Origin: Bryobacterales bacterium
GTDB taxonomy: Bacteria; Acidobacteriota; Terriglobia; Bryobacterales; Bryobacteraceae
Direction: 5' to 3'
Assembly (NCBI GenBank): GCA_003167495.1
Contig: PMSX01000204.1
Coordinates: 1 to 64,000 of the forward strand
Length of the DNA: 64,000 nt
The position numbers and the translations under genes were made by a program. Shown here one piece after another: positions 7,101-58,130 of the stretch. The notes beneath the pieces are model-generated. The model was given only the letters and a program-made list of their open reading frames with translations. It did not search any database and was not told where the DNA came from. Numbering within the stretch: the first letter of the stretch is position 1; the number at the start of each line of letters is the position of its first letter.

Positions 7101-7284
7101 CCTTAGTATCGAAGTGCAGACCGACCATGCGCTTGGTGGCATCGGGGCCGTGACAGGCGAAGCAGTTGTCGGAGAGGATAGGCCGGACACTCCGGTCGAA
7201 ATCGACGGCTGGCGCGGCGAGAACTGGCACGCGTGCGGCGCCTACCGCTAACAGGGCCATAGCGGATAAAGTACGTACAGTCAT
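4144..7284 (-). CDS. PSD1 (DUF1549/DUF1553) protein with planctomycete-type cytochrome c and LamG domain
   Basis: 1046 residues starting at 7284, where a signal peptide of about 24 residues begins; the open frame extends further upstream but without signal or family similarity. Order of domains: planctomycete cytochrome c with haem motif CFACH (Cys41, Cys44, His45), DUF1549 ([15 protein letters not shown] type start and [15 protein letters not shown], a second CxxCH), a concanavalin/LamG-like insert in the middle ([21 protein letters not shown]), then DUF1553 ([33 protein letters not shown]). Probably a periplasmic multi-haem, possibly carbohydrate-binding redox protein working with the DUF1501 protein encoded 8 bases downstream. 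The reaction is not known. Confidence 0.9.
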
Positions 7285-43294: not shown

Positions 43295-44197
43295 TTAGAT
43301 CTTATCGAGCACCATCAATGCGAACACCAGCGGCAGGTAGACAATGGAAATCATTAGTAAGCGGCGGGCGGCCCCATTAGATCTTCGAAACGCCAGACGG
43401 GCGCTAAAGAAGAAAAATCCCGCGCTCATTGCGAAGTCTAAGGCAAAATATACGAGACCGGCGTGGCCAGTCAATGTTGGGCTCAAGCTGACTGGAATGA
43501 GAACAAGCGCGGGCACGGCGGCTTGCCAGGACATAAAGTGTCGGCTTTGTTCCCCCCGGGGAAGAACCAGATATCCAGCCCGGGCGTAGTCCTCGCGATA
43601 CATCCACGCTATGGCCATGAAGTGAGGGAACTGCCACAGGAACAGCATGGCGAAGAGTATCCATGCTTCGAAGCTCAACTTCCCGGACGCAGCAGCCCAT
43701 CCGATCAGCGGAGGCGTGGCGCCGGACAGACCGCCGGCCAGCGTACAGAACGGCGTCTTTCGCTTGAGCGGCGTGTACAAAGCTAAGTAACTTCCCAGCG
43801 TGAGCAAAGCGATTAGACTCGCCAAGGCGTTGACGGTTAGGGCCAGATATGTGCCGCCTGCGAGGGACAGCAGGATACCCAACCAGAGAGCCGACGAAGG
43901 CTCGATCCTGCCCGCCGTTAGCGGCCGTCTCGCAGTCCGCCGCATCAGGGCGTCGAAACGCCGCTCAACGTACTGGTTCAGCGCACCCGCGCCGCCAGCG
44001 ACCAGCATCGTTCCCAGCAAAGTGTGAGTGAGCAGCACGAACGGGAAGCCATGAGGCTCCGCCGGCAAACCCAGGCAGAAGCCGGCTAAGGTCGCGATTG
44101 CAATCAGGAAATTAATTTCCGGTTTGGTCAGGGCCCAATAATCGGCTGCTTTTGTATTGAACGTCACCACGCAGGGTTGTGGCCTGGCCGTTGTCAT
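43295..44197 (-). CDS. cyoE: protohaem IX farnesyltransferase (haem O synthase)
   Basis: 300 residues with about eight hydrophobic segments. UbiA-type prenyltransferase signature: NQYVERRFDALMRRTARRPL, which matches the N-x-x-x-D-x-x-M-x-R-T-x-x-R-P box of CyoE/CtaB, a TPLKRKTPFCTLAGGLSGATPPLIGW segment in two parts and the second Asp-rich loop (MAIAWMYREDYARAGYL). Converts haem B to haem O with farnesyl diphosphate, the first step to haem A for the oxidase encoded at 49396-52888. No ctaA (haem A synthase) is visible in the window. Confidence 0.92.
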   Translation of the reverse strand: MTTARPQPCVVTFNTKAADYWALTKPEINFLIAIATLAGFCLGLPAEPHGFPFVLLTHTLLGTMLVAGGAGALNQYVERRFDALMRRTARRPLTAGRIEPSSALWLGILLSLAGGTYLALTVNALASLIALLTLGSYLALYTPLKRKTPFCTLAGGLSGATPPLIGWAAASGKLSFEAWILFAMLFLWQFPHFMAIAWMYREDYARAGYLVLPRGEQSRHFMSWQAAVPALVLIPVSLSPTLTGHAGLVYFALDFAMSAGFFFFSARLAFRRSNGAARRLLMISIVYLPLVFALMVLDKI

Positions 44198-44286
44198 CGT
44201 ATGCCTTTCCGGTAAGCTGGCCGTGGCCCCGAATAGATGTGCCGCAAGGAGTAGATCGAATCGGGGCCTGTGCCGGTGACCTTAGA

Positions 44287-45480
44287 TTAGGCCGCTTTTT
44301 TCAGCAGTCCATGTGGATCGAGCACGAACTTCTTGGCAACACCTTTGTCAAAATCCGCGTAACCCTGTGGCGCCTGCTCCAGCGGAATTACCGTCACGTT
44401 CACCGCCTTTGCCGGGTGGGTTCTATCATTCAGGATCGCCATCATGAGTTGGCGGTGGTACCGAATGACTGGACACTGGCCAGTAAATAAGCTATGAGAT
44501 CTGGCCCATCCGAGGCCGATGCGGAGGCCGAGTACACCATGTTGCGCAGCCGGGTCTTTGCTGCCCGGATCGTCAGTGACATAAAGACCGGGAATCCCGA
44601 TCGCGCCACCAGCGCGAGTTACTTCCATAAGTCCATTTAAGACCGTGGCGGGCGCTTCTTGGTGTTTTTCGCCTTCTGCCTTCGCCTCAAATCCGACGCA
44701 GTCCACGGCCGAATCCACTTCCGGCACACCTAGTATCTGAGCGATGTGCTCACCGAGTCCCGCCTTAGTCCGCAAATCGATCGTTTCGCATCCGAAGCTT
44801 TTGGCTTGCGCAAGCCGTTCGGGAATCATGTCGCCGACGATGGTCACGGCTGCGCCCAGCAAACGGCATGCCTCTGCGCACGCCAGGCCGACCGGACCCG
44901 CACCGGCAACGTATACTGTGGAACCGGTGGTGACACCCGCCGTAACAGCGCCGTGATAGCCGGTTGGGAAAATATCGGATAGCAGGGTCAGATCAGTGAT
45001 CTTCTCCATTGCCTTGGCTTTATCTGGAAACTTCAGCAAATTGAAGTCGGCATATGGGCACATCACGTAGTCGGCCTGCCCGCCAATCCATCCACCCATA
45101 TCGACGTATCCATAAGCTCCACCAGGGCGGCCTGGATTCACGTTCAGGCACACGCCGGTCTTCCCTTCTTTGCAATTGCGGCACCGTCCGCAGGCGACGT
45201 TAAACGGAGCTGAAACGATGTCCCCGAGTTCGAGGAGTTCGACGTCGGCTCCTTTCTCGACGACTTCGCCGGTGATCTCATGACCGAGGATCATGCCTAG
45301 CGGGGCGGTCGTACGGCCACGCACCATGTGCTGATCGCTGCCGCAGATATTCGTCGCGACCAGCTTCAATATGACCGCATGTTCCAGCTTGCGTCCGTTG
45401 TGCTCCAGCTTTGGGTAGTCGATTGTTCTCACCTCGACCTTGCCCGGGCCGACATATGCCACACCACGATTTCCTTGCAT
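44287..45480 (-). CDS. fdhA: glutathione-independent formaldehyde dehydrogenase (zinc, NAD)
   Basis: 397 residues, matching the 398-400 of Pseudomonas putida FdhA. Zinc alcohol dehydrogenase fold: catalytic zinc Cys in NICGSDQHMVRG and GHEITGEVVEKG, structural zinc cluster CGRCRNCKEGKTGVC, NAD Rossmann loop VYVAGAGPVGLACAEAC. The long insert after the structural zinc (GGAYGYVDMGGWIGGQADYV) is a hallmark of the FdhA group. Oxidises formaldehyde to formate in the cytoplasm without glutathione. Ribosome site AAAGGAG before the ATG. Follows the HbpS-like gene by 55 bases on the same strand and suits the XoxF gene facing the other way. Confidence 0.88.
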   Translation of the reverse strand: MQGNRGVAYVGPGKVEVRTIDYPKLEHNGRKLEHAVILKLVATNICGSDQHMVRGRTTAPLGMILGHEITGEVVEKGADVELLELGDIVSAPFNVACGRCRNCKEGKTGVCLNVNPGRPGGAYGYVDMGGWIGGQADYVMCPYADFNLLKFPDKAKAMEKITDLTLLSDIFPTGYHGAVTAGVTTGSTVYVAGAGPVGLACAEACRLLGAAVTIVGDMIPERLAQAKSFGCETIDLRTKAGLGEHIAQILGVPEVDSAVDCVGFEAKAEGEKHQEAPATVLNGLMEVTRAGGAIGIPGLYVTDDPGSKDPAAQHGVLGLRIGLGWARSHSLFTGQCPVIRYHRQLMMAILNDRTHPAKAVNVTVIPLEQAPQGYADFDKGVAKKFVLDPHGLLKKAA

Positions 45481-45535
45481 TGATTTGCTCCTTTGTATCT
45501 ATACCGTTCTCTTGTTGCGGTGTTCGGGAGAGACT

Positions 45536-45928
45536 TCAAAACGCCGCGGCCCCAGCTTCAGCTACAGCATGGTCTTGTTCGCCGGAGCCGCCACTAACGC
45601 CCACCGCGCCGACGACCTTCCCATCTCGCTTCAAGGGAATCCCTCCAGCAAAGATCATCACGCGCCCGTGATTCGATACGTGGATGCCGAAAAACTGATC
45701 CCCAGACTGGGAGTTCTTGCCCAGATCCTTTGTGGTGATGTCGAACGCTCGCGACGTAAAAGCTTTGTTGATTGAAATGTCAATACTCCCGAGCCAAGCT
45801 CCATCCATTCGCACGTGTGAGACGAGGTTGCCCCCTTCATCGACAACCGCGATATTCATGGGTTGTTTAATCTCGTGTGCCTTCTTCTCAGCTGCCGCCG
45901 TTATTTTGCGGGCGTCCGCTAGCGTCAT
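45536..45928 (-). CDS. GlcG/HbpS-like (DUF336) protein
   Basis: 130 residues, the whole GlcG/HbpS domain: LADARKITAAAEKKAHEI, PMNIAVVDEGGNLVSHVRMDGA, then GIHVSNHGRVMIFAGGIPL, VVGAVGVSGGSGEQDHAVAEA. Ribosome site AAGGAG before ATG. Members bind haem or corrinoids, or act as small accessory proteins in C1 and diol catabolism; a role in alcohol metabolism is suggested only by its place at the head of the fdhA transcript, divergent from xoxF. Confidence 0.85.
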   Translation of the reverse strand: MTLADARKITAAAEKKAHEIKQPMNIAVVDEGGNLVSHVRMDGAWLGSIDISINKAFTSRAFDITTKDLGKNSQSGDQFFGIHVSNHGRVMIFAGGIPLKRDGKVVGAVGVSGGSGEQDHAVAEAGAAAF

Positions 45929-46095
45929 AATTGTTTCTCCTTGTTTCAGGCTCTCGAGCCTCTCAGGACTTGAGAACTACCAGCCGGAATAGACTTATGC
46001 AACTATCGAACCAAAGGAGGAAATGCGGATTTCCCGTTCCATTATGTACAAGCAATTCACCTACTCAGTCATCTGGTCAGTCTTTAGAAGATTGA

Positions 46096-46139
46096 TGAAA
46101 GGTGCAATGTCAACTCTCGTGTTGATATAGCACCTTTCA
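46096..46139. promoter_or_regulatory. long near-perfect hairpin in the divergent fdhA/xoxF control region
   Basis: Outer arms TGAAAGGTGC (46096-46105) and GCACCTTTCA (46130-46139) are exact complements. Inside, ATGTCAAC pairs with GTTGATAT using one G-T pair, after a single A-A mismatch, leaving a six-base loop TCTCGT. It lies 119 bases upstream of the xoxF start and 168 bases from the HbpS-like start. No T run follows, so it is not a simple terminator. It is either a large operator palindrome or a leader RNA structure. The rest of 45929-46257 carries no convincing gene; a 35-codon reading from 46023 has GGAGG only 2 bases before its ATG. Confidence 0.55.
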
Positions 46140-46257
46140 ACGCCGGGCTATGACTCTCGCGGGCCTCGATAGCTGGCGGTTTATCGTCATTTGGCCGCCA
46201 CGGTATTGCTTTTTTCTCTGGTCGATGAATTGCTGCTTTCCTTGCTAGAGGAATTCG

Positions 46258-48105
46258 ATGCTTGTTGTATTCGGTTTACCCTCCCGCTTAGCCAGGTGGA
46301 TCGTGCCGCTTGCCTTTGCGCCCTTGCTCGGCAATCTGACTGGATGCGGCTCGGGAGTTCACGCCCAATCTAAGGAACCTGTCGCGCTCACTGTGAAGGC
46401 GCTTAACGAGCCTCCAGCGGAAGATGGCCAATGGGTGATGCCCGCAAAAGATTACGGAAGCACACGCTATAGCCAGCTCACCGATATCAGCACCAGCAAT
46501 GTAGGAACGCTGAAGCTGGCTTGGACATTCTCCACGGGAATGCTCCACGGCCATGAGGGTGCGCCGCTCGTGGTTGGCGACACAATGTATTTGACAACCC
46601 CCTACCCCAACGTTCTTTACGCGCTGGACCTAAGTAAAGGAGGGACCGTTAAGTGGGCATACAAGCCCAACCCTGTCGCCTCGGCTCAGGGTGAGGCGTG
46701 CTGCGATGTCGTGAATCGCGGCGCGTCCTACTCGAACAATCGTATCTTCTTCAACAGCCTGGATGGGAACGCAATTGCCGTCGACGCCCAAACCGGAAAG
46801 GAGATCTGGAAAACCAAAATCGGCGACCTCAATAGAGGGGAAACCATCACAATGGCGCCTCTGGTCGTAAAGGATCGTGTCCTCGTAGGCGATAGTGGCG
46901 GCGAGATGGGCATTCGAGGAAAGCTGTCGGGGCTTGACATAAACACCGGCAAGATCGTTTGGCAGGCCTTTACTTGCGGGCCGGACAAGGATGTTCTCAT
47001 CGGCCCGAACTTCAAGCCATTCTACGAGTCTGAGCGCGGAAAAGATTTAGGTGTCGCAACTTGGCCGAAGGATCTTTGGAAGATTGGTGGCGGCTCGGTG
47101 TGGGCCTGGATCTCCTACGATCCTGAATTGGACCTCATCTATTACGGAACTTCGAATCCCAGTCCCTGGAATCCCGAGGTGCGGCCGGGGGACAACAAGT
47201 GGACGTCGACTGTTTTCGCGAGGCATCCCGAGACCGGCGAGGCGGTCTGGGCTCACCAATACAGCCCTCATGATAACTACGATTACGATGCTGTCAATGA
47301 GCATATACTCGTCGATTTGAAGATCGACGGTCGAATCCGCAAAGTGCTCCTTCATCCCAATCGCGACGGCCGCATGTATGTTATGGACCGAGCCACCGGT
47401 GAAGTGTTGAGCGCAAATACATTCGCTTACGTTACGACCACCACCGGCGTCGACATGAAAACCGGCCGGCCACTTGACGTTAAATCGCTGACGCCGGGTT
47501 TTGGCAGAACCGTCCGCGGCATTTGCCCGGCGGCTCCTGGAGGAAAGGATTGGCAACCCTCTGCTTATTCGTTTAAGACGGGTCTTCTTTACATGCCGCA
47601 AAACAACTTGTGCCAGGAAGAGCAGGGCGTGGAAGCAAATTACGTATCTGGAACGCCATACGTCGGCGCAATTGTGCGGATGTATGCCGCCCCGGGCGGA
47701 AACCGCGGTTTTTATACAGCATGGGATCCAGTGGCAGGTAAACCGGTCTGGCAGATCAAAGAGAGGTTTCCGGTTTGGAGCGGCACTGTGGTAAACGCGG
47801 GCAACGTTGCGTTCTACGGCACGATGGATGGCTATTTCAAAGCAGTGGACGCCACCAATGGCAACCCGCTCTGGCAGTTCAAGGTCGGCTCCGGTATCGT
47901 GGGCCAGCCGGTCATCTACAAGGGACCCGACCACAAGGAATACGTAGCGATCTATTCCGGTGTGGGCGGCTGGTCGGGAGCCATTGTGCCCGGCGAGCTC
48001 GATCCGCGCGATGGAACCTCAGCATTGGGTTTCGTCAACGCTATGTCGGATCTGCCTCAATACACAACGGCAGGGGGGACTCTCTATGCGTTCACGCTTC
48101 CTTAA
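46258..48105 (+). CDS. xoxF: XoxF-type PQQ-dependent alcohol (methanol) dehydrogenase
   Basis: 615 residues, eight-bladed quinoprotein propeller. Signal peptide has a possible lipobox (NLTGC, Cys30). Active-site residues can be placed: adjacent cysteines 148-149 (GEACCDVVNRG, the PQQ disulfide), Glu216 (SGGEMGIRG), Asn300 (YYGTSNPSPWNPE) and Asp342 in DNYDYDAVNE. The D-Y-D at 342-344 is the motif that sets lanthanide-using XoxF apart from calcium MxaF, which has Ala two residues after the catalytic Asp. Glu to Asn spacing of 84 equals that known for MDHs. Expected to oxidise methanol or another primary alcohol in the periplasm, handing electrons to cytochrome c. xoxJ-like and cytochrome genes follow directly. 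Confidence 0.9.
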   Translation: MLVVFGLPSRLARWIVPLAFAPLLGNLTGCGSGVHAQSKEPVALTVKALNEPPAEDGQWVMPAKDYGSTRYSQLTDISTSNVGTLKLAWTFSTGMLHGHEGAPLVVGDTMYLTTPYPNVLYALDLSKGGTVKWAYKPNPVASAQGEACCDVVNRGASYSNNRIFFNSLDGNAIAVDAQTGKEIWKTKIGDLNRGETITMAPLVVKDRVLVGDSGGEMGIRGKLSGLDINTGKIVWQAFTCGPDKDVLIGPNFKPFYESERGKDLGVATWPKDLWKIGGGSVWAWISYDPELDLIYYGTSNPSPWNPEVRPGDNKWTSTVFARHPETGEAVWAHQYSPHDNYDYDAVNEHILVDLKIDGRIRKVLLHPNRDGRMYVMDRATGEVLSANTFAYVTTTTGVDMKTGRPLDVKSLTPGFGRTVRGICPAAPGGKDWQPSAYSFKTGLLYMPQNNLCQEEQGVEANYVSGTPYVGAIVRMYAAPGGNRGFYTAWDPVAGKPVWQIKERFPVWSGTVVNAGNVAFYGTMDGYFKAVDATNGNPLWQFKVGSGIVGQPVIYKGPDHKEYVAIYSGVGGWSGAIVPGELDPRDGTSALGFVNAMSDLPQYTTAGGTLYAFTLP

Positions 48106-48892
48106 CACGCTGTTGGCGTTCTCGTTTTTGGGCGCGACGGCGAGGATTTACGCGGCAGAGGATGTCCTGCGAGTTTGCGCGGACCCGAACAACCTGCCGT
48201 TTTCCAACGCACAAGAACAGGGGTTTGAGAACAAAATCGCCTCCCTCCTGGCCAGCACCCTGCATGAGACCCTCAGCTATACCTGGTGGGTTGAACGCAA
48301 CAGCCTTGCGAAGAACACGGTAAACGCAAACCGCTGCGACGTATTGCTGGGGGTGCCTGCCGCGTTTGAGCATGTGGCAACCACCAAGCCTTATTACAGG
48401 TCTACTTACGTCTTTGTCTATCGACAGGACCGGCAACTCCATTTGAAATCGCTGTACGATCCGGCGCTGGAGCGGCTCCACATTGGAGTTCACATGCTTG
48501 GCAACGGATTTTGTCCGCCTGAAGTTGTGCTGGCGAGGCGCGGTATCCGCTCTAACGTGACCGGATATAGCATGCGTGGGTCTTATGGGCAGGCAAACCC
48601 GCCCGCCCGGTTGATCGAAGCAGTCGAAAAGAAGGATGTTGACGTGGCGATTGTTTGGGGACCGTTGGGCGGATACTTTGCGCAACAGCAACCTGCACCG
48701 CTCGTTGTTGTGCCTGTCTCCCCTGACCACCTTGGCGAGGTCCCATTCAGTTATGACATTGCGTTGGCTGTGCGAACACGCAATGTAGCGCTTAAAGACC
48801 GTCTGGATAACGCACTGACGAGCAAAGCCAAAGAGATTCGGGCGATCCTCGTTTCCTACGGCGTTCCCGAATCAGAGACCACAAAGGAGTGA
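48086..48892 (+). CDS. xoxJ: XoxJ/MoxJ-like periplasmic binding protein
   Basis: 268 residues from ATG 48086, overlapping the xoxF end by 20 bases; a longer open frame upstream is only a shadow of xoxF. Signal peptide ends near IYAAED. Mature start DVLRVCADPNNLPFSNAQEQGFENKIA is the classic start of the quinoprotein-dehydrogenase-associated SBP_bac_3 group; also VLLGVPAAFEHV, GVHMLGNGFCPPEVVLARRG and VDVAIVWGPLGGYFA. MoxJ/XoxJ proteins are needed for active MDH, probably in folding or cofactor loading. Order xoxF-xoxJ-cytochrome differs from the xoxFGJ order of many methylotrophs. Confidence 0.88.
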   Translation: MRSRFLNTLLAFSFLGATARIYAAEDVLRVCADPNNLPFSNAQEQGFENKIASLLASTLHETLSYTWWVERNSLAKNTVNANRCDVLLGVPAAFEHVATTKPYYRSTYVFVYRQDRQLHLKSLYDPALERLHIGVHMLGNGFCPPEVVLARRGIRSNVTGYSMRGSYGQANPPARLIEAVEKKDVDVAIVWGPLGGYFAQQQPAPLVVVPVSPDHLGEVPFSYDIALAVRTRNVALKDRLDNALTSKAKEIRAILVSYGVPESETTKE

Positions 48893-48894
48893 AC

Positions 48895-49389
48895 ATGCGG
48901 GCGATGAGTCTAGCTGTGCTTTTGGTGCTGACTGTCTCTTGTAAGCGAGAACAGCGTCAGCTGCGCGTGGAACCGGACCAGCGAGCAGTGTCCCTGGAAG
49001 CCCGCGAGGGTGAGATCCAACCGGGTGGACCTGTGCAGGAGCTTGTCGTGAAGAATCCTTATGAAGGAAATGCGGATGCCATCGCCGAAGGAGAGCGTCT
49101 TTACGGTTGGTATAACTGCTCCGTTTGTCATGGGACGCACGGAGGTGGAGGTATGGGCTTGAACCTGCTTGCCCCCGCGCTAGTCTATGGCGACGCATCC
49201 GATAACCTCTTCGACACCATTAACAAAGGGCGCCCCAAAGGTATGCCGTCATGGGGAGGACGCATTCCGACGAATCAGATTTGGGAGATTGTCACCTTCA
49301 TCCGCTCACTGAGGGGCTTGGAGCCGAAGGCGGTGACACCGGCCCGCGAAGAAGCTTTGCAGTATCAATCTCCGGCAGGCAGCAGGTAG
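48895..49389 (+). CDS. c-type cytochrome, likely XoxF electron acceptor
   Basis: 164 residues from ATG 48895 (AAGGAG 5 bases before it). Short hydrophobic leader ending VSC, a weak lipobox with Cys16. One haem motif CSVCH (75-79) and a methionine in RPKGMPSWGG as likely sixth ligand, i.e. class I cytochrome c. Sits between xoxJ and coxB, 6 bases before coxB, so the likely route of electrons from the dehydrogenase to the oxidase. Whether it counts as true XoxG by phylogeny cannot be judged by eye. Confidence 0.85.
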   Translation: MRAMSLAVLLVLTVSCKREQRQLRVEPDQRAVSLEAREGEIQPGGPVQELVVKNPYEGNADAIAEGERLYGWYNCSVCHGTHGGGGMGLNLLAPALVYGDASDNLFDTINKGRPKGMPSWGGRIPTNQIWEIVTFIRSLRGLEPKAVTPAREEALQYQSPAGSR

Positions 49390-49395
49390 GTAGAA

Positions 49396-50379
49396 GTGTA
49401 CGATCAATTCGTTTTGCCAATAATATTGGCCTCGCTTCCGGCTTCAATCAGTCAGTCGGCTCTTTACCCCGCGGGGCCGCAAGCTGCCAAAGTCTATCTT
49501 CTCTGGGAAATCTTTGGCTGGCTTTTCGCAGCTATCTGGACAATCGTCATCGGTTTCCTGCTGGTGGCACTCTTCCGCCGGCACCGCGCCGCTGTGTTGG
49601 CGCCCAACGCCGGTGAAAGAGCGGTTGCCGTGGCGGGAAGCATCACCATCGGGATCCTGTTTATCCTCATCATCGTCAGTTCGGTGGCGGCGCGCGATAT
49701 TCATGCGAGCCACGCGCCCTCCGATGAGCTGAGAATCCACGTCATTGGACGCCAGTGGTGGTGGGAATTCCAGTATCAAAACGGTTCCGCGGATCACTTG
49801 CTCACCACCGCAAATGAGTTTCACATTCCGGTGGGCCGCCGGGTGCGCTTCGAGGTCACGTCTAACGACGTGATTCACAGCTTCTGGGTCCCCAATCTGT
49901 CGCCAAAAATGGACGCTATCCCGGACCACTTCAACACGATTGCTTTTCAGGCCGATCGCGAAGGAACGTATCGCGGCCAGTGCGCCGAGTTTTGCGGGCT
50001 ACAGCACGCCCATATGGGCTTCATCGTTGTTGTCGAAAGCCCGGACAAGTTTCAGGAGTGGTTCAAGAATCAGCTAACACCGTCGGCAGAGAATCTCACT
50101 GCGGAACAGCAGAAGGGCCGGCAGATTTTTCTCGCTTCACCTTGCGTGATTTGCCACTCGATTCGCGGAACGGACGCTTTCGGTTCTGTCGCTCCTGATC
50201 TGACTCACCTGGCGAGCCGGAGCACGATAGCGGCAGCTGAACTGGAGAATACGCCCGGCAATCTCAGCGGGTGGATTACCGATTCGCAGCGGCTTAAGCC
50301 AGGCACCAAGATGCCGCCCATCGACATCGCTTCTCAAGACATGCAACCCCTGCTCTCGTATTTGGAGGCTCTCAAGTGA
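49396..50379 (+). CDS. coxB: caa3-type cytochrome c oxidase subunit II with fused cytochrome c
   Basis: 327 residues from GTG 49396. Two membrane helices (about 30-62 and 75-100), then the cupredoxin domain with the CuA site: QWWWEFQY, HSFWVPNLSPKMD and GQCAEFCGLQHAHM. A C-terminal cytochrome c domain (about 230-327) has CVICH and a KMPP methionine region, which makes this a caa3-type subunit that takes electrons from other cytochromes. Overlaps coxA (GTGA). All CuA ligands are visible. Confidence 0.92.
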   Translation: MYDQFVLPIILASLPASISQSALYPAGPQAAKVYLLWEIFGWLFAAIWTIVIGFLLVALFRRHRAAVLAPNAGERAVAVAGSITIGILFILIIVSSVAARDIHASHAPSDELRIHVIGRQWWWEFQYQNGSADHLLTTANEFHIPVGRRVRFEVTSNDVIHSFWVPNLSPKMDAIPDHFNTIAFQADREGTYRGQCAEFCGLQHAHMGFIVVVESPDKFQEWFKNQLTPSAENLTAEQQKGRQIFLASPCVICHSIRGTDAFGSVAPDLTHLASRSTIAAAELENTPGNLSGWITDSQRLKPGTKMPPIDIASQDMQPLLSYLEALK

Positions 50380-52283
50380 CACCCGTCAGCCAGCAAACGC
50401 CCGTCGACCGCGAGAATTTGGAACTCGCGCGGACTTGGGCGCCGCCTACCGGTCCTTTTCGTTGGTTCCGGGAAGTAAATGCTCAAGTCATCGGCAAGCG
50501 CTATATCGTCACCGCGTTTATCTTCTTTCTTATCGCAGGGCTCGAGGCGCTCTTGATTCGAGTACAACTCGCCGCACCTGAAAACCACTTCCTCAATCCC
50601 GATCTCTATAACCAGATTTTTACGATGCACGGCAGCACCATGATGTTCCTCTTCGCGGTGCCAGTTCTTGAGGGATTCGGCGTATACCTCGTACCTTTGA
50701 TGTTGGGTGCACGCAACGTCTCACTGCCCAGACTGAACGCGTTCGGTTATTACATTTATTTGTTTGGTGGAATCTTCCTCTATATCGGGCTGCTTACGAA
50801 CACAGGTCCGGATGCAGGCTGGTTTTCCTATACGCCTTTGTCGGGACCGCAGTTTTCTCCTGGTGAGCGGCTGAATTTCTGGACGCAGATGATTATCTAC
50901 ACGAACCTTTCGGCACTCTGCGTGGCCGTGGTCATTATTGTGACCGCGTTAAAGCAGAAGCCACCTGGAATGTCTCTGAACCGGATGCCCGTGTTTGTCT
51001 GGGCCGTGACCATCCAGTCTTTCATGGTGCTCTTCGCCATGCCGGTGGTGGTGGCCGCGAGCACCATGCTCTTTCTCGACCGCCGGATCGGAACCAATAT
51101 CTTTAATTCCGCGCAAGGCGGCGACCCATTACTTTGGCAACATCTGTTCTGGTTCTTCGGCCATCCGGATGTGTATATCGTCTTCATCCCCCCAATGGGA
51201 ATGATTGCGGAGGTTGTGGCTACTTTCTGCCGTCGCCCGCTGGTGGGCTATCAGGCAATTGTGTTGGCCGAAATCGCCACGGGTTTCATCAGTTTCGGTT
51301 TGTGGGTGCACCACATGTTCGCCACTGGAATTCCGCAGCTGGGTGAGGCGTTCTTCACCGCGGCGAGCATGATGATCGCAATTCCTACCGGCGTTCAGAT
51401 TTTCTGCTGGATCGCCACCATTTGGACGGGAAGGCCGCGTCTGGAAGTGCCGATTTATTGGGCCGCAGGCGTCGTCGCGACCTTTGTCATTGGCGGGTTG
51501 AGCGGCGTGATGATGGCTGCAGTTCCGTTCGACGTGCAAGTACATGATACGTTCTTCGTGGTTGGTCATATTCACTACGTCTTGATTGGGTCAACCGTGT
51601 TCGGGGTCATGGCCGCGCTCTATTTCTGGTTTCCAAAAATGAGCGGCCGTCTGTTCAACGTCGCGCTGGGAAAATGGAGCTTCTGGCTGTCATTCATAGG
51701 ATTCAATGTGACGTTCTTTCCGATGCACGTGCTCGGACTGCTCGGCATGCCCCGGCGCATTTACACGTATCAGCCCGGGCTGGGCTGGGATGGTTTGAAC
51801 CTGCTTTCGACCGTGGGCGCATTCATCCTCGCCACCGGATTCCTGTTGAGTCTCGTGAATGTGTTGAAGTCGTTAAGGGACGGAAGAGAGGCCGGCAGTA
51901 ATCCCTGGGATGCACCAACAATGGAGTGGAGGACGCCATCCCCTCCGCCTTCCTACACTTTCCTGGAGTTACCGGTTGTGTGGGGCAGCGGACCTCCGTC
52001 GTGGGACGAAAAGCCCGAAGGAGCCGTACGGGGACTTGATCCTTCGCGGCGCGAAGTTCTGATCACGAAGATCGTTGATGCTTCTCCGGACCATCGCTAC
52101 ATCGTTCCGGGACCGAGCATATGGCCTTTCCTGCTCGGCCTTCTGGGTGCTCTTACTTTCGCTGCAATCGCGTTCTATATTCGCTGGGCGCCCATCGGCG
52201 CGGGCCTGTGCGTGTTGGCGCTGATCGGGTGGTTTTGGCCCTCCCGAGGCTCGGTAACTGACACTTTCGGAGGCGCTGAATGA
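50376..52283 (+). CDS. coxA: cytochrome c oxidase subunit I
   Basis: 635 residues from a GTG that overlaps the coxB stop. Twelve core helices with the metal sites: FTMHGSTMMFLFAVP (haem a His), WFFGHPDVYIVFIPPMG (CuB His and the cross-linked His-Tyr), HHMFATGI, and HDTFFVVGHIHYVLIGS (haem a and a3 histidines). The HPDVY tyrosine and the loop that follows match A-type oxidases. A C-terminal extension of about 110 residues with two more helices (from PSPPPSYTFLELP on) resembles the fused subunit IV region. Reduces O2 to water and pumps protons. Confidence 0.93.
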   Translation: MTPVSQQTPVDRENLELARTWAPPTGPFRWFREVNAQVIGKRYIVTAFIFFLIAGLEALLIRVQLAAPENHFLNPDLYNQIFTMHGSTMMFLFAVPVLEGFGVYLVPLMLGARNVSLPRLNAFGYYIYLFGGIFLYIGLLTNTGPDAGWFSYTPLSGPQFSPGERLNFWTQMIIYTNLSALCVAVVIIVTALKQKPPGMSLNRMPVFVWAVTIQSFMVLFAMPVVVAASTMLFLDRRIGTNIFNSAQGGDPLLWQHLFWFFGHPDVYIVFIPPMGMIAEVVATFCRRPLVGYQAIVLAEIATGFISFGLWVHHMFATGIPQLGEAFFTAASMMIAIPTGVQIFCWIATIWTGRPRLEVPIYWAAGVVATFVIGGLSGVMMAAVPFDVQVHDTFFVVGHIHYVLIGSTVFGVMAALYFWFPKMSGRLFNVALGKWSFWLSFIGFNVTFFPMHVLGLLGMPRRIYTYQPGLGWDGLNLLSTVGAFILATGFLLSLVNVLKSLRDGREAGSNPWDAPTMEWRTPSPPPSYTFLELPVVWGSGPPSWDEKPEGAVRGLDPSRREVLITKIVDASPDHRYIVPGPSIWPFLLGLLGALTFAAIAFYIRWAPIGAGLCVLALIGWFWPSRGSVTDTFGGAE

Positions 52284-52888
52284 ATAAACACGACGTAGAT
52301 GCCAGCCATTTGCCGACAATTGGGTTCGGCGCGCGCGCCCCGGTCTGGTGGGCCGGGATACTCTCGATGATCATGCTGAGCACGATCTTTGCGCTCTTAT
52401 TCTCGAGTTATTCTTATCTGCGCACCGGCTTTTCCAGTTGGCCGGCCCCGGGAGCGCCGACGCCTGACTTGGTTCTCCCGACCATCAGCCTACTGGTGTT
52501 GCTGACCGGTTGTGTCCCGACGCATATGGCAAGTAAGGCGGCGCAGCGAGGCGAGCACCGCAAAGCTGGTTCCGGGTTATTCATCGCCCTGATTTTGGCC
52601 GGTATATTTCTGGCTTTGAGATTCCTTACCTTCGCGCGTCTTGGATTTACCTGGTACACGAGCGTGTACGGCTCCCTGGTATGGATCGTTTTGGGTTTTC
52701 ACACGCTTTTGGCAATCGCGAGCGCGGCGCAAACCTGCATCGTCTTCGGGACCCTGGTTGGTAGCGGATACCGCGAGAAACAGCGGCTCGGAGTGCAGAT
52801 CGACGCAACGTATTGGTACTTTCTTGCCTTAAGCTGGATACCTTTCTATTTTCTGTTCTTTGTGTATCCGAACATTCAGGGGAGTTGA
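52280..52888 (+). CDS. coxC: cytochrome c oxidase subunit III
   Basis: 202 residues, five hydrophobic segments, typical of the short bacterial form. WWAGILSMIMLSTIFALLF near the N terminus, YTSVYGSLVWIVLGFHTLLA with the conserved His of subunit III helix, and DATYWYFLALSWIPFYFLFF at the end. Start overlaps the coxA stop (ATGA). Stabilises subunit I and the proton uptake path. Confidence 0.88.
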   Translation: MNKHDVDASHLPTIGFGARAPVWWAGILSMIMLSTIFALLFSSYSYLRTGFSSWPAPGAPTPDLVLPTISLLVLLTGCVPTHMASKAAQRGEHRKAGSGLFIALILAGIFLALRFLTFARLGFTWYTSVYGSLVWIVLGFHTLLAIASAAQTCIVFGTLVGSGYREKQRLGVQIDATYWYFLALSWIPFYFLFFVYPNIQGS

Positions 52889-52889
52889 T

Positions 52890-53264
52890 ATGTCGAATGC
52901 CGCTTCAGAATCTATTCGCGCGCACCACGCCGGTCCGCTTTGGCTCAATCTGATTCCAGGCCCGGCAATCTGGGCTATTCAGGCATCCACTAATTACGCC
53001 CTCGTCCAATACGCATGCACATCCGAGATTGCCGCAGCGGCGATCCATACAATCGGCATCGCGGCGCTGGTAGTGCTCGCCCTTTGCATGGCTTCAGCCA
53101 GGCGCAGATATAAAGCGGTATCGGTTCAATCGGAGAACGTTGACGTTGAGGCTTGGCCGCCTCAGCGTTGGGTGCCGGCAGCCGGCTTTATCCTGTGCAT
53201 GGTCTTCTTTGTGGTGACTCTGGCGGAGACGATTCCACCTTTTATTGTGAACCGATGCGAATGA
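52890..53264 (+). CDS. small membrane protein of the cox operon
   Basis: 124 residues from ATG 52890 (GGGGAG upstream). Three hydrophobic helices (near 17-35, 48-65 and 92-112), short soluble parts. Starts one base after coxC ends and overlaps ctaG, so part of the same mRNA. No family recognised; similar-sized membrane proteins occur in caa3 operons as subunit IV or assembly helpers. Confidence 0.65.
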   Translation: MSNAASESIRAHHAGPLWLNLIPGPAIWAIQASTNYALVQYACTSEIAAAAIHTIGIAALVVLALCMASARRRYKAVSVQSENVDVEAWPPQRWVPAAGFILCMVFFVVTLAETIPPFIVNRCE

Positions 53265-54151
53265 ATTTCAAATGGACCGTTCTGCTGGTCTTCGCGAATT
53301 TCGCGTCCGCACATCCGGGCGAACGTCTGGAACCGCATGATCTTTGGACGGCATGGGAGTTTGATCCGGGCGTGGTTATACCGCTGGTGTTGAGCGCATT
53401 CCTCTACTATTTTGGTGTCTACCGCAGCGGCTCGATCCCCCGGTCGCATATAGCCGCTTTCACAGCCGGGTGGCTGTCGTTAGTAGTGGCGCTGGTCTCG
53501 CCGCTGCACCCGCTCGGCGAGTCTTTATTCTCCGCTCATATGACCCAGCATGAAATTCTCATGCTCATTTCAGCGCCGCTTCTCGTACTGGGCCGGCCCA
53601 TGGTTCCGATGCTGTGGGCGCTCCCCATCTCGTGGCGACGCGCCTTGGGGAGCGCGGCAAAAGCACCTCCTGTCCACGCCGTGTGGCAGACAATTACATA
53701 CCCGCTGGTTGCGTGGGCAATTGAACTCGTTGTTTTGTGGGGCTGGCATCTACCCGCTCTTTTTGAAAGGACGCTGACCAGTGATCTTGCCCATGCTGCC
53801 CAGCACGCCAGCTTCCTGAGCGCGTCACTTCTCTTTTGGTGGGCTGTCTTCCAGGGAGGCGAACGGCGTTTCGGTTACGGGATGTCGGTGATGTACCTCT
53901 TTACAACAGCTGTCTACTCCGGCATTCTGGGCGCTCTGCTTACGTTCTCACAACGCGTGTGGTATCCGGCATATAACGGATCAACGGCCGTTTGGGGTTT
54001 GACACCGCTCGAAGATCAGCAGATTGGCGGGCTTATTATGTGGGTCCCCGCGAGCATCGTGTACATTGTCGCGGGTTTATGGTTATTCGCACTTTGGCTC
54101 GCGGAGTCGGATTTCCGATCGGCGCAGGCGAGCGCACGAAACAGCATATGA
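53255..54151 (+). CDS. ctaG: CtaG family caa3 oxidase assembly protein
   Basis: 298 residues from ATG 53255, or 296 from 53261, which would give an ATGA overlap with the previous stop. A cleavable leader (VLLVFANFASA), then seven helices with LHPLGESLFSAHMTQHEILMLI in two parts, PLVLGRPM, WGWHLPALFE and LFWWAVFQGG. This is the Bacillus-type CtaG (PF09678), needed for CuB insertion in caa3 oxidases, distinct from the Cox11 protein also named CtaG. Its histidine and methionine-rich loops suit copper handling. Confidence 0.88.
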   Translation: MRMNFKWTVLLVFANFASAHPGERLEPHDLWTAWEFDPGVVIPLVLSAFLYYFGVYRSGSIPRSHIAAFTAGWLSLVVALVSPLHPLGESLFSAHMTQHEILMLISAPLLVLGRPMVPMLWALPISWRRALGSAAKAPPVHAVWQTITYPLVAWAIELVVLWGWHLPALFERTLTSDLAHAAQHASFLSASLLFWWAVFQGGERRFGYGMSVMYLFTTAVYSGILGALLTFSQRVWYPAYNGSTAVWGLTPLEDQQIGGLIMWVPASIVYIVAGLWLFALWLAESDFRSAQASARNSI

Positions 54152-54519
54152 AATGGATATTGGCAGCTGCTTTATTACTCCCTCTCATTTCGGTCTCATG
54201 CTCTGAGCTACTGGAACCAGCGGATGCTCCAGATTTCGGCGGCGATGCCGGCCGCGGGAAAGAAAAGATTGCCTATTACGGCTGCGGTTCGTGTCACACG
54301 ATCCCCGGAGTCATCGGGGCGCAGGGACTCTTAGGTCCGCCACTCACTGGCGTCGGAAACCGCGTCTATCTGACAGGTGTTCTGCTGAATAACTCGGATA
54401 ACATGGCGTTATGGATCCAGAATCCGCAAGCGGTGAACCAGCTTACTGTGATGCCCAACCTACATGTTACGCCGGGCGATGCTAATGACATCGCCAGCTA
54501 TCTGACCAGTCTGCGATAG
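54148..54519 (+). CDS. class I cytochrome c, last gene of the cox run
   Basis: 123 residues, start overlapping ctaG (ATGA). Leader ends VSCSE, possibly lipidated at Cys18. Haem motif CGSCH (46-50) and a late MPNLHV methionine. The pattern IPGVIGAQGLLGPPLTGVGNR is shared with cytochromes attached to caa3-type enzymes. Probably a second membrane-tethered electron shuttle for the oxidase. Confidence 0.87.
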   Translation: MKWILAAALLLPLISVSCSELLEPADAPDFGGDAGRGKEKIAYYGCGSCHTIPGVIGAQGLLGPPLTGVGNRVYLTGVLLNNSDNMALWIQNPQAVNQLTVMPNLHVTPGDANDIASYLTSLR

Positions 54520-55603: not shown

Positions 55604-57043
55604 TCACCACACTGCTTGGCTCAAAGGTGGGGCAGGCTTCAGCCTGTCGAGGCGGAGCTCCGCTCCGCCGGTCGCCGAGATGATTATCGGCGCGGCAGAC
55701 ACGAGTGTCCGCGCCACAAATGGCCAAGAATGGCCCCACGAAAGCGTGACATTCAGCGAGTAGAACCTACGTGCTCTGTCGCCGCTGTCACGTTTGTACC
55801 GGTGGCGTGCAGCCCGCGTCCCGGATAATGCTATCTCCCTGCCTAAACGGACGGTCTCCAAGTACGCTGTGAGTTTTTTATCTGGCGGCCACTTAACGGT
55901 CTTTTCGATTCGCAGCACCAGCTTATGACCCGTAGCGCGATTTTCCGCTCCAAACTCCTGATAGGCGTTGGCGTAAAAGAACCAGCTACCGCTGTTCCAA
56001 ACCATTCCGGGCCCTATTGCACCCACTTGTTCAGGCGAGTTGTGAAGGGCCACAGCGTCAATCTTTCCATCGGTAATCTGCTTAAGGTAGTAGGCGTTAG
56101 GGCCGATCCACAGGCCTTTCCAAATTCTGTACGCAGCCGTCGCGTTGAAATGAATGGCCTGGCCGGCCTGAGTGGATCGCGCGCCTGTAATCATTGGAGG
56201 ATCATTGTTTGCGGAGTTCCAGAGGTAGTGAACCCGCCAACTCGTTTCAAGCCGTTTTGCCGGAAACGCGGTGATCGAGTAATACGGATGAACGGTGAAG
56301 GTGTTGGCCCCGATATTAACGTTAGACGTGCGCGAATATTGCCCCGTCGGCAGGTCGAAATCCGCCACTACGCGCTGGTCGATTGCAATACCCAAAACTC
56401 GATGTTCGCGCCATTGCAGAATGAACGGCGATACCGTCGTGCTGCCCAAGCCTACCGCCTCTCCCCGGGCTCCGGCATTCACATGCGCTACTGAGAGGAC
56501 AACTTCCACTCCGTACCAGGCTCCAAGAAATTGCTTAGGGCCCAGCCATGCAATGTGTGTCAAACCGCTGATGCTGTTCACTGCACCCGCGTCCTGCACG
56601 GCGTTTCCGGCTGAATCCGTGATTCGTCCGTCATGTGCCGCATCCCCAATTTGCTCGACGACGAAGCCCGGTCCCGCTGGTGCGTCGAGAAAGCTGGTAT
56701 CGCCAAGGTTGACGGCCGGCTCTGAAACGTGGCTCTGACCCGGCAAGGAATTGGACTGGAGGCCGATCAGCATAGCTACGTGCAAAAGTCTGGTCAACCA
56801 ACGGGCCCTCTCTCTGAACTGGCTTACTGCGTAAGCAAGCAAGCCGAATACGAGGACAAACACTGCTGCCGTAAGCGCGAGCACGAAGAGAGATAAGCCA
56901 TGGCTCGATTGCGCCGGAGTTGAAACCGGACTGAATATGCTTGTTGGGCTCGAAGGTCCGTGCGCGGGGTCATCGAGAACGATTCTGGCCGCGAAGCAAT
57001 GGACCGCGAGAGCTGTTACCTTCCGTGTAACGGCTTTGCTCAT
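55604..57043 (-). CDS. CoxB-type N terminus fused to SphA/MetA-pathway-like outer-membrane protein
   Basis: 479 residues with AGGAGG before the ATG. Residues about 30-80 (SIFSPVSTPAQSSHGLSLFV, then AYAVSQFRER) are those of a cytochrome oxidase subunit II N terminus with its first helix. They join, at about residue 82, a second signal-like stretch (RLLHVAMLIGLQSNSLPGQS) and then an SphA/phenol-MetA family beta-barrel (LPTGQYSRTSNVNIGANTFT, GLWIGPNAYYLKQITDGKID, WFFYANAYQEFGAENRATGH). After NVTLSW, a normal barrel end, the frame runs on for about 45 residues through the hairpin repeat at 55633-55715. The chimera may not be a functional protein; the barrel alone would be a porin-like protein seen near alcohol dehydrogenases. 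Confidence 0.7.
   Translation of the reverse strand: MSKAVTRKVTALAVHCFAARIVLDDPAHGPSSPTSIFSPVSTPAQSSHGLSLFVLALTAAVFVLVFGLLAYAVSQFRERARWLTRLLHVAMLIGLQSNSLPGQSHVSEPAVNLGDTSFLDAPAGPGFVVEQIGDAAHDGRITDSAGNAVQDAGAVNSISGLTHIAWLGPKQFLGAWYGVEVVLSVAHVNAGARGEAVGLGSTTVSPFILQWREHRVLGIAIDQRVVADFDLPTGQYSRTSNVNIGANTFTVHPYYSITAFPAKRLETSWRVHYLWNSANNDPPMITGARSTQAGQAIHFNATAAYRIWKGLWIGPNAYYLKQITDGKIDAVALHNSPEQVGAIGPGMVWNSGSWFFYANAYQEFGAENRATGHKLVLRIEKTVKWPPDKKLTAYLETVRLGREIALSGTRAARHRYKRDSGDRARRFYSLNVTLSWGHSWPFVARTLVSAAPIIISATGGAELRLDRLKPAPPLSQAVW
55633..55715. repeat. REP-like element with three consecutive hairpins
   Basis: Three palindromes in 83 bases: CAGGCT-TC-AGCCTG (55633-55646), GGCGGAG-CTCCG-CTCCGCC (55651-55669) and GGCGCG...GACAC-GA-GTGTC-CGCGCC (55689-55715). 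Such CAGGCT..AGCCTG and GACACGAGTGTC units are dispersed intergenic repeats in Acidobacteria and create false open frames on both strands. Here the element forms the coding tail of the SphA-like gene on the minus strand and lies 79 bases past the stop of the preceding plus-strand gene. Confidence 0.7.
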
Positions 57044-57077: not shown

Positions 57078-58130
57078 TCAGACAGTGGAAATGGCCGCCA
57101 TTGTCTCCTTGCGAATGATGGGCGCTACTCGATCTCCAAACCTTTCGATGACTTTTGCGACCTCGCTGTAAGGAAGGCCTCCAATGTCAATCTGCGCGAG
57201 AAAGCGATCATGATGCACTATTTCGTACTCCGCGATGATTTTGTCGACAACTTCTTGAGCTGAGCCAACCATGAGGGCGTTTGTTGGTGCGGTCATCAAT
57301 GCAAACTCAGATTCGGAGATCTGAATCTGCTTCCTTCCACTCGGCAAAAACTCGCTCATATAGTGTTGATAATATGGCCGGAATATGTTGCGTGAGTTCT
57401 GTGGGTCTTCACCGACATAAGCATGGCTGTTTAGGCTGACTTTCAGTTTTGATTGAGGGTGTCCAGCACGCCTTCCAGCCTCGCGATACAGGGTCACGGT
57501 GCCAGCAATCCGAGTGATCGGCCCACCTAATACGGCAAGCGCCATCGGCAATCCAAGTTCCCCCGCTCTGACTGCACTTTCCGGTGAGCCACCGACTCCA
57601 ACCCAAAGAGGCAGTTGCGCCTGATGAGGGCGAGGGCTAATCTCAGCGTCCCGTAGGGAGCTCCGAAACTGCCCGGACCAAGTAATACGTCTGGCCTGAT
57701 TCAGCTTTTGCAAGAGATCAAGCTTTTCCTCGAAGAGCGCGTGATAATCGTCCAGGTCAAAACCAAAGAGCGGGAACGGCTCCGTGAAGACGCCACGCCC
57801 CACGATGAGTTCAGCGCGCCCGTGGGATATTAAGTCAAGCAGCGAGAAGTCCTCAAAGACTCTTACCGGATCGGCAGCACTCAGTACCGTAACAGCGCTC
57901 GTCAACCTGATCCGCTTGGTTGCGTTTGCAACGGCTCCCAGAATCACCGCTGGTGACGGGACAGCAAAGTCCAGGCGATGGTGTTCCCCAATACCAAACA
58001 CATCGAGACCTACCTCGTCCGCAAGTTGTGCCGCTGCGATCGTTTCTTTGATTCGGCGTTCTGCGTTAATGCGTACCCTGGTACTCGGGTCCGAACTCAA
58101 ATCTGAGAGTGTATATAGCCCAAGTTCCAT
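57078..58130 (-). CDS. LLM class flavin-dependent oxidoreductase
   Basis: 350 residues, a single bacterial luciferase-like TIM barrel. Landmarks: ELGLYTLSDL, LADEVGLDVFGIGEHHRLDF, RIRLTSAVTVLSAADPVRVF, FSLLDLISHGRAELIVGRG and LPLWVGVGGSPESAVRAGELG. FMN- or F420-dependent oxidoreductase or monooxygenase of unknown substrate; a reductase partner is not nearby. The SphA-like gene follows after 34 bases on the same strand. Confidence 0.88.
   Translation of the reverse strand: MELGLYTLSDLSSDPSTRVRINAERRIKETIAAAQLADEVGLDVFGIGEHHRLDFAVPSPAVILGAVANATKRIRLTSAVTVLSAADPVRVFEDFSLLDLISHGRAELIVGRGVFTEPFPLFGFDLDDYHALFEEKLDLLQKLNQARRITWSGQFRSSLRDAEISPRPHQAQLPLWVGVGGSPESAVRAGELGLPMALAVLGGPITRIAGTVTLYREAGRRAGHPQSKLKVSLNSHAYVGEDPQNSRNIFRPYYQHYMSEFLPSGRKQIQISESEFALMTAPTNALMVGSAQEVVDKIIAEYEIVHHDRFLAQIDIGGLPYSEVAKVIERFGDRVAPIIRKETMAAISTV

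Follow-up and report, generated by a model that had tools for sequence, protein, structure and literature searches.

The stretch of DNA considered here (the window) comprises 64,000 nucleotides (nt) from the genome of a Bryobacterales bacterium (Acidobacteriota), positions 1 to 64,000 of contig PMSX01000204.1 in assembly GCA_003167495.1. Between positions 46258 and 54519, nine genes on the plus strand encode a pyrroloquinoline quinone (PQQ) alcohol dehydrogenase of the XoxF type, its companion XoxJ, a cytochrome oxidase, and associated proteins. The first gene, xoxF (46258..48105), encodes what is likely an XoxF3-type dehydrogenase (TIGR03075, 625 bits; cut-off 480) with the residues D342-Y343-D344. 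It is followed by a gene for an XoxJ-like periplasmic binding protein (48086..48892; TIGR03871, 285 bits, cut-off 212) and, in the place of XoxG, by a gene for a cytochrome c with one CxxCH motif and a lipobox (48889..49389; PF13442, 50.5 bits), which gives 33 bits with the NCBIfam MoxG model, under the cut-off of 148. The oxidase is encoded by coxB (49396..50379), specifying a CuA-containing subunit II with a cytochrome c fused at its C-terminus (TIGR02866, 174 bits, cut-off 148; PF00116 and PF00034), coxA (50376..52283), specifying the haem-copper subunit I (TIGR02891, 701 bits, cut-off 671), and coxC (52280..52888), specifying subunit III (PF00510, 48.7 bits; under every NCBIfam cut-off). 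The row ends with the gene for a 124-residue membrane protein that matches no family (52890..53264; characterized by alignment and an AlphaFold2 model), ctaG (53261..54151), encoding an oxidase assembly factor of the caa3 type (PF09678, 198 bits; 50 bits with the NCBIfam caa3_CtaG model, under its cut-off of 279), and the gene for a second cytochrome c, again with one CxxCH motif and a lipobox (54148..54519; PF00034, 24.5 bits, cut-off 21.3). CoxC, CtaG, and the cytochromes are identified by Pfam only.

The joints within the row consist of one 20-nt overlap, five 4-nt overlaps, and gaps of 6 and 1 nt, with start codons, including that of xoxJ, that are our own choice. Such joints are compatible with a single transcript. 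Judged by profile scores, a chance origin is excluded: ctaB, fdhA, xoxF, xoxJ, coxB, and coxA, six genes in all, score over their NCBIfam cut-offs. An initial annotation, made from the letters of the window alone, had named these genes together with the neighbouring ctaB, fdhA, and an HbpS-like gene, and had described the nine as overlapping or nearly touching. The NCBIfam and Pfam profiles find every named gene at its place, and the joints listed above bear out the description.

The dehydrogenase and its linkage to oxidase genes

The closest solved relatives of the window XoxF are methanol dehydrogenases, 4mae (670 bits), 7o6z (582 bits), and 6oc5 (569 bits), which we take to be XoxF2, XoxF1, and XoxF5, respectively. 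The metal-ligand positions E216, N300, D342, and D344 are invariant in the window protein and its ten acidobacterial relatives (11 of 11); at the extra Asp position (D344), the solved MxaF chain and the three sequences grouping with it have Ala. The D-Y-D motif that the initial annotation placed at residues 342-344 is present, and the TIGR03075 score supports the identity as XoxF. In a tree of 72 sequences, which took 25 of the 80 loci of the scan described below and held no labelled XoxF3 or XoxF4 reference, the window protein lies inside a clade of 48 (100/99) that excludes the solved chains 7o6z, 4mae, 6oc5, and 4tqo. The phylogenetic check that the annotation had proposed thus gives a placement apart from the solved chains. 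Assignment to XoxF clade 3 is likely, because XoxF3 is the name given in the cluster descriptions of PMC10875860 to acidobacterial XoxF with adjacent cox genes, and because a Methylocella tundrae xoxF in the clade matches the cluster described in PMC11102522, where the XoxF3 of M. tundrae T4 belongs to an xoxFGJ cluster. Behind the M. tundrae xoxF in question (L180/L201, isolate 2) lie xoxJ and a cytochrome gene. A possible lipoprotein signal, LTGC, can be seen by eye in the window XoxF; the lipobox pattern rejected this copy and accepted 21 of 78 sequences.

The same genome carries a second xoxF on contig C369 (L076; 8983-14594), which is 51% identical to the first, contains one in-frame TAG, and groups with the xoxF of genome G192 outside the main XoxF3 clade. 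Its neighbours are coxB, a frame resembling coxC, and, at the edge of the contig, a coxA of another type; a transposase gene lies near.

How widespread the row is was assessed in two samples. The first consists of 396 genomes of the phylum, with at most three candidates scored per genome. A relative of XoxF at E 1e-100 or better is present in 27 of them. When the line for XoxF3 is drawn at E 4e-225 or better (11 genomes, the window's own included; the line was drawn after the list was seen) and that for CoxA at E 1e-180 or better, all 11 genomes with a strong XoxF3 also carry this CoxA, and XoxF3 is present in 11 of the 12 genomes that have this CoxA. The search of acidobacterial genomes for the same xox-cox order, suggested in the initial annotation, gave a positive answer, with the genes side by side in nine relatives; in G192 the oxidase is on another contig than xoxF.

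The second sample, a scan of named genomes, comprises the best 80 of 426 XoxF relatives, which span Acidobacteriota, Gemmatimonadota, Verrucomicrobiota, Rokubacteria, Myxococcota, and Proteobacteria. Among the 60 loci that have at least 5 kb behind xoxF, coxA is found there on the same strand and within 4.5 kb in 56, a fraction that is not an unbiased rate for all XoxF since the loci were picked by likeness to acidobacterial XoxF3. The four exceptions have coxA upstream (L113), on the other strand (L164 and L180), or nowhere within the stretch (L163). In the 52 loci with at least 9 kb, coxA, coxB, and coxC are each present in 48, ctaG in 46, the gene for the small membrane protein in 44, and that for the first cytochrome in 50; xoxJ is present in 43, the second cytochrome gene in 23, and hbpS in 9. 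Judged from these loci, an oxidase behind xoxF is therefore the rule for this XoxF type. One Opitutus metagenome-assembled genome (MAG; L139) has two CoxA genes of this type in tandem (at 7234 and 9727) behind a single xoxF.

The cluster is also in print. PMC10875860 reports it for all 12 of its XoxF-bearing Acidobacteria genomes and partly for its Gemmatimonadetes and Verrucomicrobia; for the presence of cox and ctaG in xoxF3 operons, it refers to an earlier mini-review. The clusters described there have the same gene set as the window, with the small protein between CoxIII and CtaG in most; the window differs from them in having fdhA and ctaB divergently beside the row, and shows no NRAMP gene among the flanking genes scanned. 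The initial annotation had called both the joining of xox and oxidase genes and the order xoxF-xoxJ-cytochrome unusual. Neither judgement stands: the oxidase genes lie behind 56 of 60 related xoxF genes with room for them, and the order is common among the related loci. Indeed, for this XoxF type the block is ordinary in known methylotrophs, namely Methylobacter marinus and Methylobacillus arboreus, and, with a variant oxidase, Novimethylophilus. The initial annotation had itself listed such an outcome as a refutation. The gene cluster was correctly observed and is of an already known kind, the usual arrangement for this type of dehydrogenase.

The caa3 oxidase operon of Bacillus, ctaCDEFG, encodes subunits II, I, and III, a small protein of three helices, and CtaG, and the window row matches this order. 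In the small protein of the window, P25, C43, and C123 are conserved at 90% or above across 45 aligned sequences (an alignment that used 44 of 54 relatives), and the AlphaFold2 model has three long helices (predicted local distance difference test 87.5, predicted template-modelling score 0.76). No Pfam or NCBIfam family is matched over its cut-off, and Foldseek gives no match at E 0.001 or below. Identity with subunit IV (CtaF/CyoD) would suit the place and the three predicted helices; however, the protein lacks similarity to one COX4_pro protein of this genome (hhalign probability 0.1), and with no fold match this identity was set aside as a lead only. A published link to vesicle-transport proteins looks equally weak: the best Foldseek E value is 0.63, with syntaxins among many unrelated helix bundles (best 50 of 246 matches), and one relative of the small protein matches the vesicle protein family PRA1 under the cut-off (E 0.03). 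If the charged loop of the model is inside the cell, C43 and C123 would both be periplasmic; a role in disulfide formation or copper binding would be a guess. Both cytochromes of the row meet the lipobox pattern, and the lipobox Cys of the first is mostly followed by ERE, KRE, or a similar triplet (14 examples).

Proton-channel residues of the companion oxidase

By its overall profile (TIGR02891), the window CoxA is still a family A haem-copper oxidase, and the haem ligands, the CuB His ligands, and the cross-link Tyr are kept in it and in 64 of 64 aligned rows. Several residues of the proton-uptake channels are replaced. In Rhodobacter numbering (PMC3084760 lists the corresponding channel residues of Paracoccus), the window protein has Gln at K362, Asn at D132, Val at N121, Val at N207, and Asp at E286. 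The K-channel Lys is Gln in the window and its nine relatives (10 of 10), and an alignment slip is ruled out by the gap-free match of IPTGVQIF with VPTGIKIF.

We counted 62 CoxA proteins, taken as frames of more than 350 residues near XoxF3 in the scan loci. Frames of 350 residues or less were dropped, and L173 contributed no second oxidase, since the one at its edge, with the Lys retained, lies away from the cluster. The place of the Lys is occupied by Gln in 58, Ala in 3, Ile in 1, and Lys in none; for the 56 coxA genes behind xoxF, the residue is Gln in 54, Ile in 1, and Ala in 1. At D132, at the mouth of the D-channel, the residues are Asn (49), Asp (7), Ser (4), Glu (1), and Thr (1). At position 177, which we placed in helix IV, 59 of the 62 have Glu and 3 have Gly, the residue of the canonical rows. 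Among the 64 rows with Gln or Ile at the Lys place (a set that includes the window and four plasmid copies), this Glu is present in 63; the sole exception is the window, with Asn. Among the rows compared, Asp at the place of Glu286 is likewise found in the window only.

Other oxidases provide the background for these changes. In the same genome, the oxidases on contigs C9 and C260 keep all of the channel residues (D, N, N, E, and K), and a third on C66 keeps D, N, N, and K and has Ala at E286. A second oxidase type, in which Trp stands for Glu286 and Ala for the Lys, accompanies XoxF in Methylocella tundrae, a Hyphomicrobiales MAG, and Novimethylophilus; in the incomplete CoxA of contig C369, the two places hold Trp and Thr, respectively. 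A CoxA tree built from 33 of 72 rows unites the enzymes with Gln or Ile in a single clade (100/99), with the Trp type as its sister group and the general oxidases separate; the window protein has a long end branch (0.85).

Laboratory mutants lacking this K-channel Lys lose nearly all activity. A substitute path would therefore be needed if these enzymes work, and we infer that the XoxF3-linked oxidase uses a non-standard mode of proton uptake and pumps weakly or not at all. Tentatively, and with more doubt than confidence, the residue counts can be read further: the XoxF3-linked oxidases would make up a subfamily of their own within family A, with the path of protons rewired, in which Gln replaces the Lys, the mouth of the D-channel is mostly lost, and a nearly invariant new Glu appears in helix IV. 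The window copy lacks that Glu and has Asp for Glu286, and would thus act as an electron sink of low yield or without pumping, in which alcohol is burned with oxygen unrestrained by the proton gradient.

Variants and losses of the K- and D-channels within family A, chiefly in archaea, are discussed in PMC8239418, and the window oxidase shares altered K- and D-channels with the variants treated there. The main text of that paper contains neither 'methyl' nor 'xoxf' and does not connect the channel variants with XoxF. The word 'proton' is not mentioned in the text of PMC10875860. No paper treating the loss of the K-channel in XoxF-linked oxidases was found in a search judged by titles and the starts of abstracts, with most subscription journals outside it; the loss of the usual proton-uptake residues in the XoxF3-linked oxidase may be new to the literature.

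A probable dedicated chain to oxygen and its alternatives

Taken together, the gene row probably encodes an XoxF3-type dehydrogenase module with its own caa3-type oxidase, that is, a dedicated chain from XoxF3 through a cytochrome to oxygen; such a chain had been put forward in the initial annotation and is supported as the likely reading. Its metal, substrate, and electron path would be as follows. With PQQ and probably a lanthanide, XoxF3 would carry out the periplasmic oxidation of methanol or another small alcohol. The membrane-tethered cytochrome c (48889) would receive the electrons and hand them to the fused haem c of CoxB, from which they would reach CuA, haem a, and lastly the haem a3-CuB site of CoxA, where oxygen would be reduced. 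XoxJ, CtaG, the three-helix protein, and the second cytochrome may serve in assembly or as electron relays, and the adjacent FdhA would remove formaldehyde. In favour of this reading, XoxF and CoxA distances correlate over 58 pairs (Mantel r 0.787, a value reached by none of 5000 permutations), though shared descent alone would partly produce such a correlation.

Several observations weigh against a dedicated chain. Both Asp residues of the D-Y-D motif are also present in several paralogues of the same genome and in two Methylocella sequences outside the XoxF group; the motif is therefore needed, is not sufficient, and proves little alone. Two further points concern the supply of PQQ and the fate of formaldehyde. 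In the host genome (9.39 Mb in 396 contigs, 93.9% complete and 7.6% contaminated), the best PqqE score is 73 bits (cut-off 381) and PqqC has no match, while all four control genomes pass both; the check for pqq genes suggested in the initial annotation thus came out negative for these two, and the enzyme therefore either depends on outside PQQ or may be idle. A search for PqqA matched in no control genome and is uninformative. The gene fae, present in 4 of 4 controls, was not found in the host genome, where the fdhA beside the row is the only formaldehyde enzyme seen; beyond fae, other formaldehyde routes were not searched.

This last result bears on an alternative that is compatible with the dedicated chain and to which we would give an even chance: that XoxF3 serves mainly for alcohols or aldehydes other than methanol, in detoxification or overflow, rather than for methylotrophic growth. 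The lack of a detected fae, the position of fdhA next to the row, and the many carriers that are, by their record titles, soil bacteria without known methylotrophy all speak for it. Against it, several carriers are methanotrophs or methylotrophs by name, and Methyloversatilis genes named xoxF3 are expressed 1.6-3 fold higher on methanol than on methylamine in the data given in PMC5023235. The same genes are a further point against the linkage itself: the authors call them xoxF3G3J3, a name that need not stand for clade 3, and their locus numbers are far from those of the listed cox genes, making Methyloversatilis a possible exception to the xoxF3-cox linkage.

Less probable, and in our judgement rather unlikely, is that the row encodes a spare or low-yield cytochrome c oxidase for general use, sharing the transcript with xoxF3 by chance, with electrons from XoxF3 entering a common cytochrome c pool and reaching any oxidase or other acceptor. 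The genome does hold other CoxA genes with canonical channels, and the same oxidase family occurs where XoxF is not: genome G167 has the oxidase without XoxF beside it, a Caballeronia plasmid copy has no PQQ dehydrogenase in the stretch inspected, and on Mesorhizobium japonicum pMLb (L191) the same oxidase type lies directly behind a molybdopterin oxidoreductase (FdhF/YdeP) and a cytochrome, with no XoxF. In addition, transcripts of xoxF3 in M. tundrae T4 are higher during anoxic growth on methanol and N2O than during oxygen-replete growth, according to the expression results of PMC11102522. This does not agree with a chain tied to oxygen, and XoxF3 can evidently be made without oxygen; the result may not carry over to the window module, because the oxidase of the M. 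tundrae locus compared here (L180) belongs to the Trp type. Speaking for a dedicated partnership are the presence of XoxF3 in 11 of the 12 sampled genomes with this CoxA and the lipobox on the first cytochrome, which argues against a freely diffusing pool; a crude pattern detects this lipobox in the window and in no fewer than 50 of 73 loci. That the window oxidase is decaying and possibly inactive is quite improbable: it alone among the 64 rows has lost the helix-IV Glu, it has Asp for Glu286, and its branch is long, but all nine reading frames are open with tight joints, and the oxidase retains the Tyr and every ligand of the haems and CuB.

The plasmid copies also say something about the history of the oxidase. 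Among the 25 matches listed of 957 plasmid records (53.5-57.8% identical), the best comes from Azospirillum (57.8%) and most of the others from rhizobia and burkholderias, with 16 of the 25 rhizobial. One copy, in Sinorhizobium medicae, lies behind xoxFJ, and one in Bradyrhizobium lies ahead of a PQQ dehydrogenase and its binding protein. The position of the pMLb oxidase behind a molybdopterin oxidoreductase suggests that the cassette has been swapped between dehydrogenases, and we infer that the oxidase genes form a portable cassette whose product has a changed proton path. A possible counterpart is the alternative oxidase CoxMNOP of Pseudomonas KF707, said in PMC5492768 to be typical of Sinorhizobium, Mesorhizobium, and Cupriavidus. 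Both oxidases have a subunit II with fused haem c, two in CoxM and one in the window CoxB; the likeness, drawn from the published description, is a lead only.

Cofactors, flanking genes, and significance

Lack of a recognizable PQQ pathway extends to the relatives. Among the 11 XoxF3 acidobacteria, PqqE scores over its cut-off in one (G281) and PqqC likewise in one, compared with 4 of 4 controls for each; PqqC matches under the cut-off occur in G197, G286, and G042. Nine other XoxF3 acidobacteria without PqqC or PqqE over the cut-off are 96-100% complete. That ten of the 11 have neither over the cut-off suggests that the XoxF3 acidobacteria obtain the cofactor from neighbours. In the survey of PMC10875860, 16 of 38 XoxF genomes were able to make PQQ, and import is considered possible. 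Despite having no PqqC or PqqE over the cut-off, the host genome matches the PQQ dehydrogenase family at 36 places, some of which are fragments of a single gene; eight of the matches pass the cut-off. Haem A synthase (CtaA) is present on another contig. Thus the module, which the initial annotation called self-contained, is so with regard to its own oxidase in a tight row, and not with regard to PQQ and haem A.

On the minus strand, ahead of xoxF, lie ctaB for haem O synthase (43295..44197; TIGR01473, 270 bits, cut-off 210), fdhA for a glutathione-independent zinc formaldehyde dehydrogenase (44287..45480; TIGR02819, 720 bits, cut-off 637), and a gene for an HbpS-like protein of a haem-binding or haem-degrading family (45536..45928; PF03928, 153 bits, cut-off 25). 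The 329-nt divergent intergenic region between the last of these and xoxF (45929..46257) is presumed to be a promoter for both directions. No relative of ctaB at E 1e-20 was found in the 80 related xoxF loci, many of them shorter than 10 kb; a weaker zinc dehydrogenase relative of fdhA is present in 4 of the 80, and HbpS-like homologues with 72-74% identity lie behind the cluster in two relatives. There is no sign that the block is foreign DNA (GC content 0.562, compared with 0.558 in the rest of the window; tetranucleotide r 0.912), the tetranucleotide test being a weak one, in which two loci from other genomes score higher (0.93 and 0.94). Beyond the row, a gene for a Phenol_MetA_deg (PF13557) family protein on the minus strand (55604-57043) adjoins a luciferase-like monooxygenase gene (57078-58130).

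XoxF3 accounts for 340 of the 411 dehydrogenase sequences in the soil and weathered-granite metagenomes surveyed in PMC10875860, which also states that XoxF3 systems have not been studied experimentally. Within the cluster, the channel residues of the oxidase are the part worth following. If the companion oxidase does not pump as standard enzymes do, the energy yields assumed for alcohol oxidation in soil would not hold, and the question of which residues the reduction of oxygen really needs could be put to a family A enzyme that lacks the K-channel Lys by nature.

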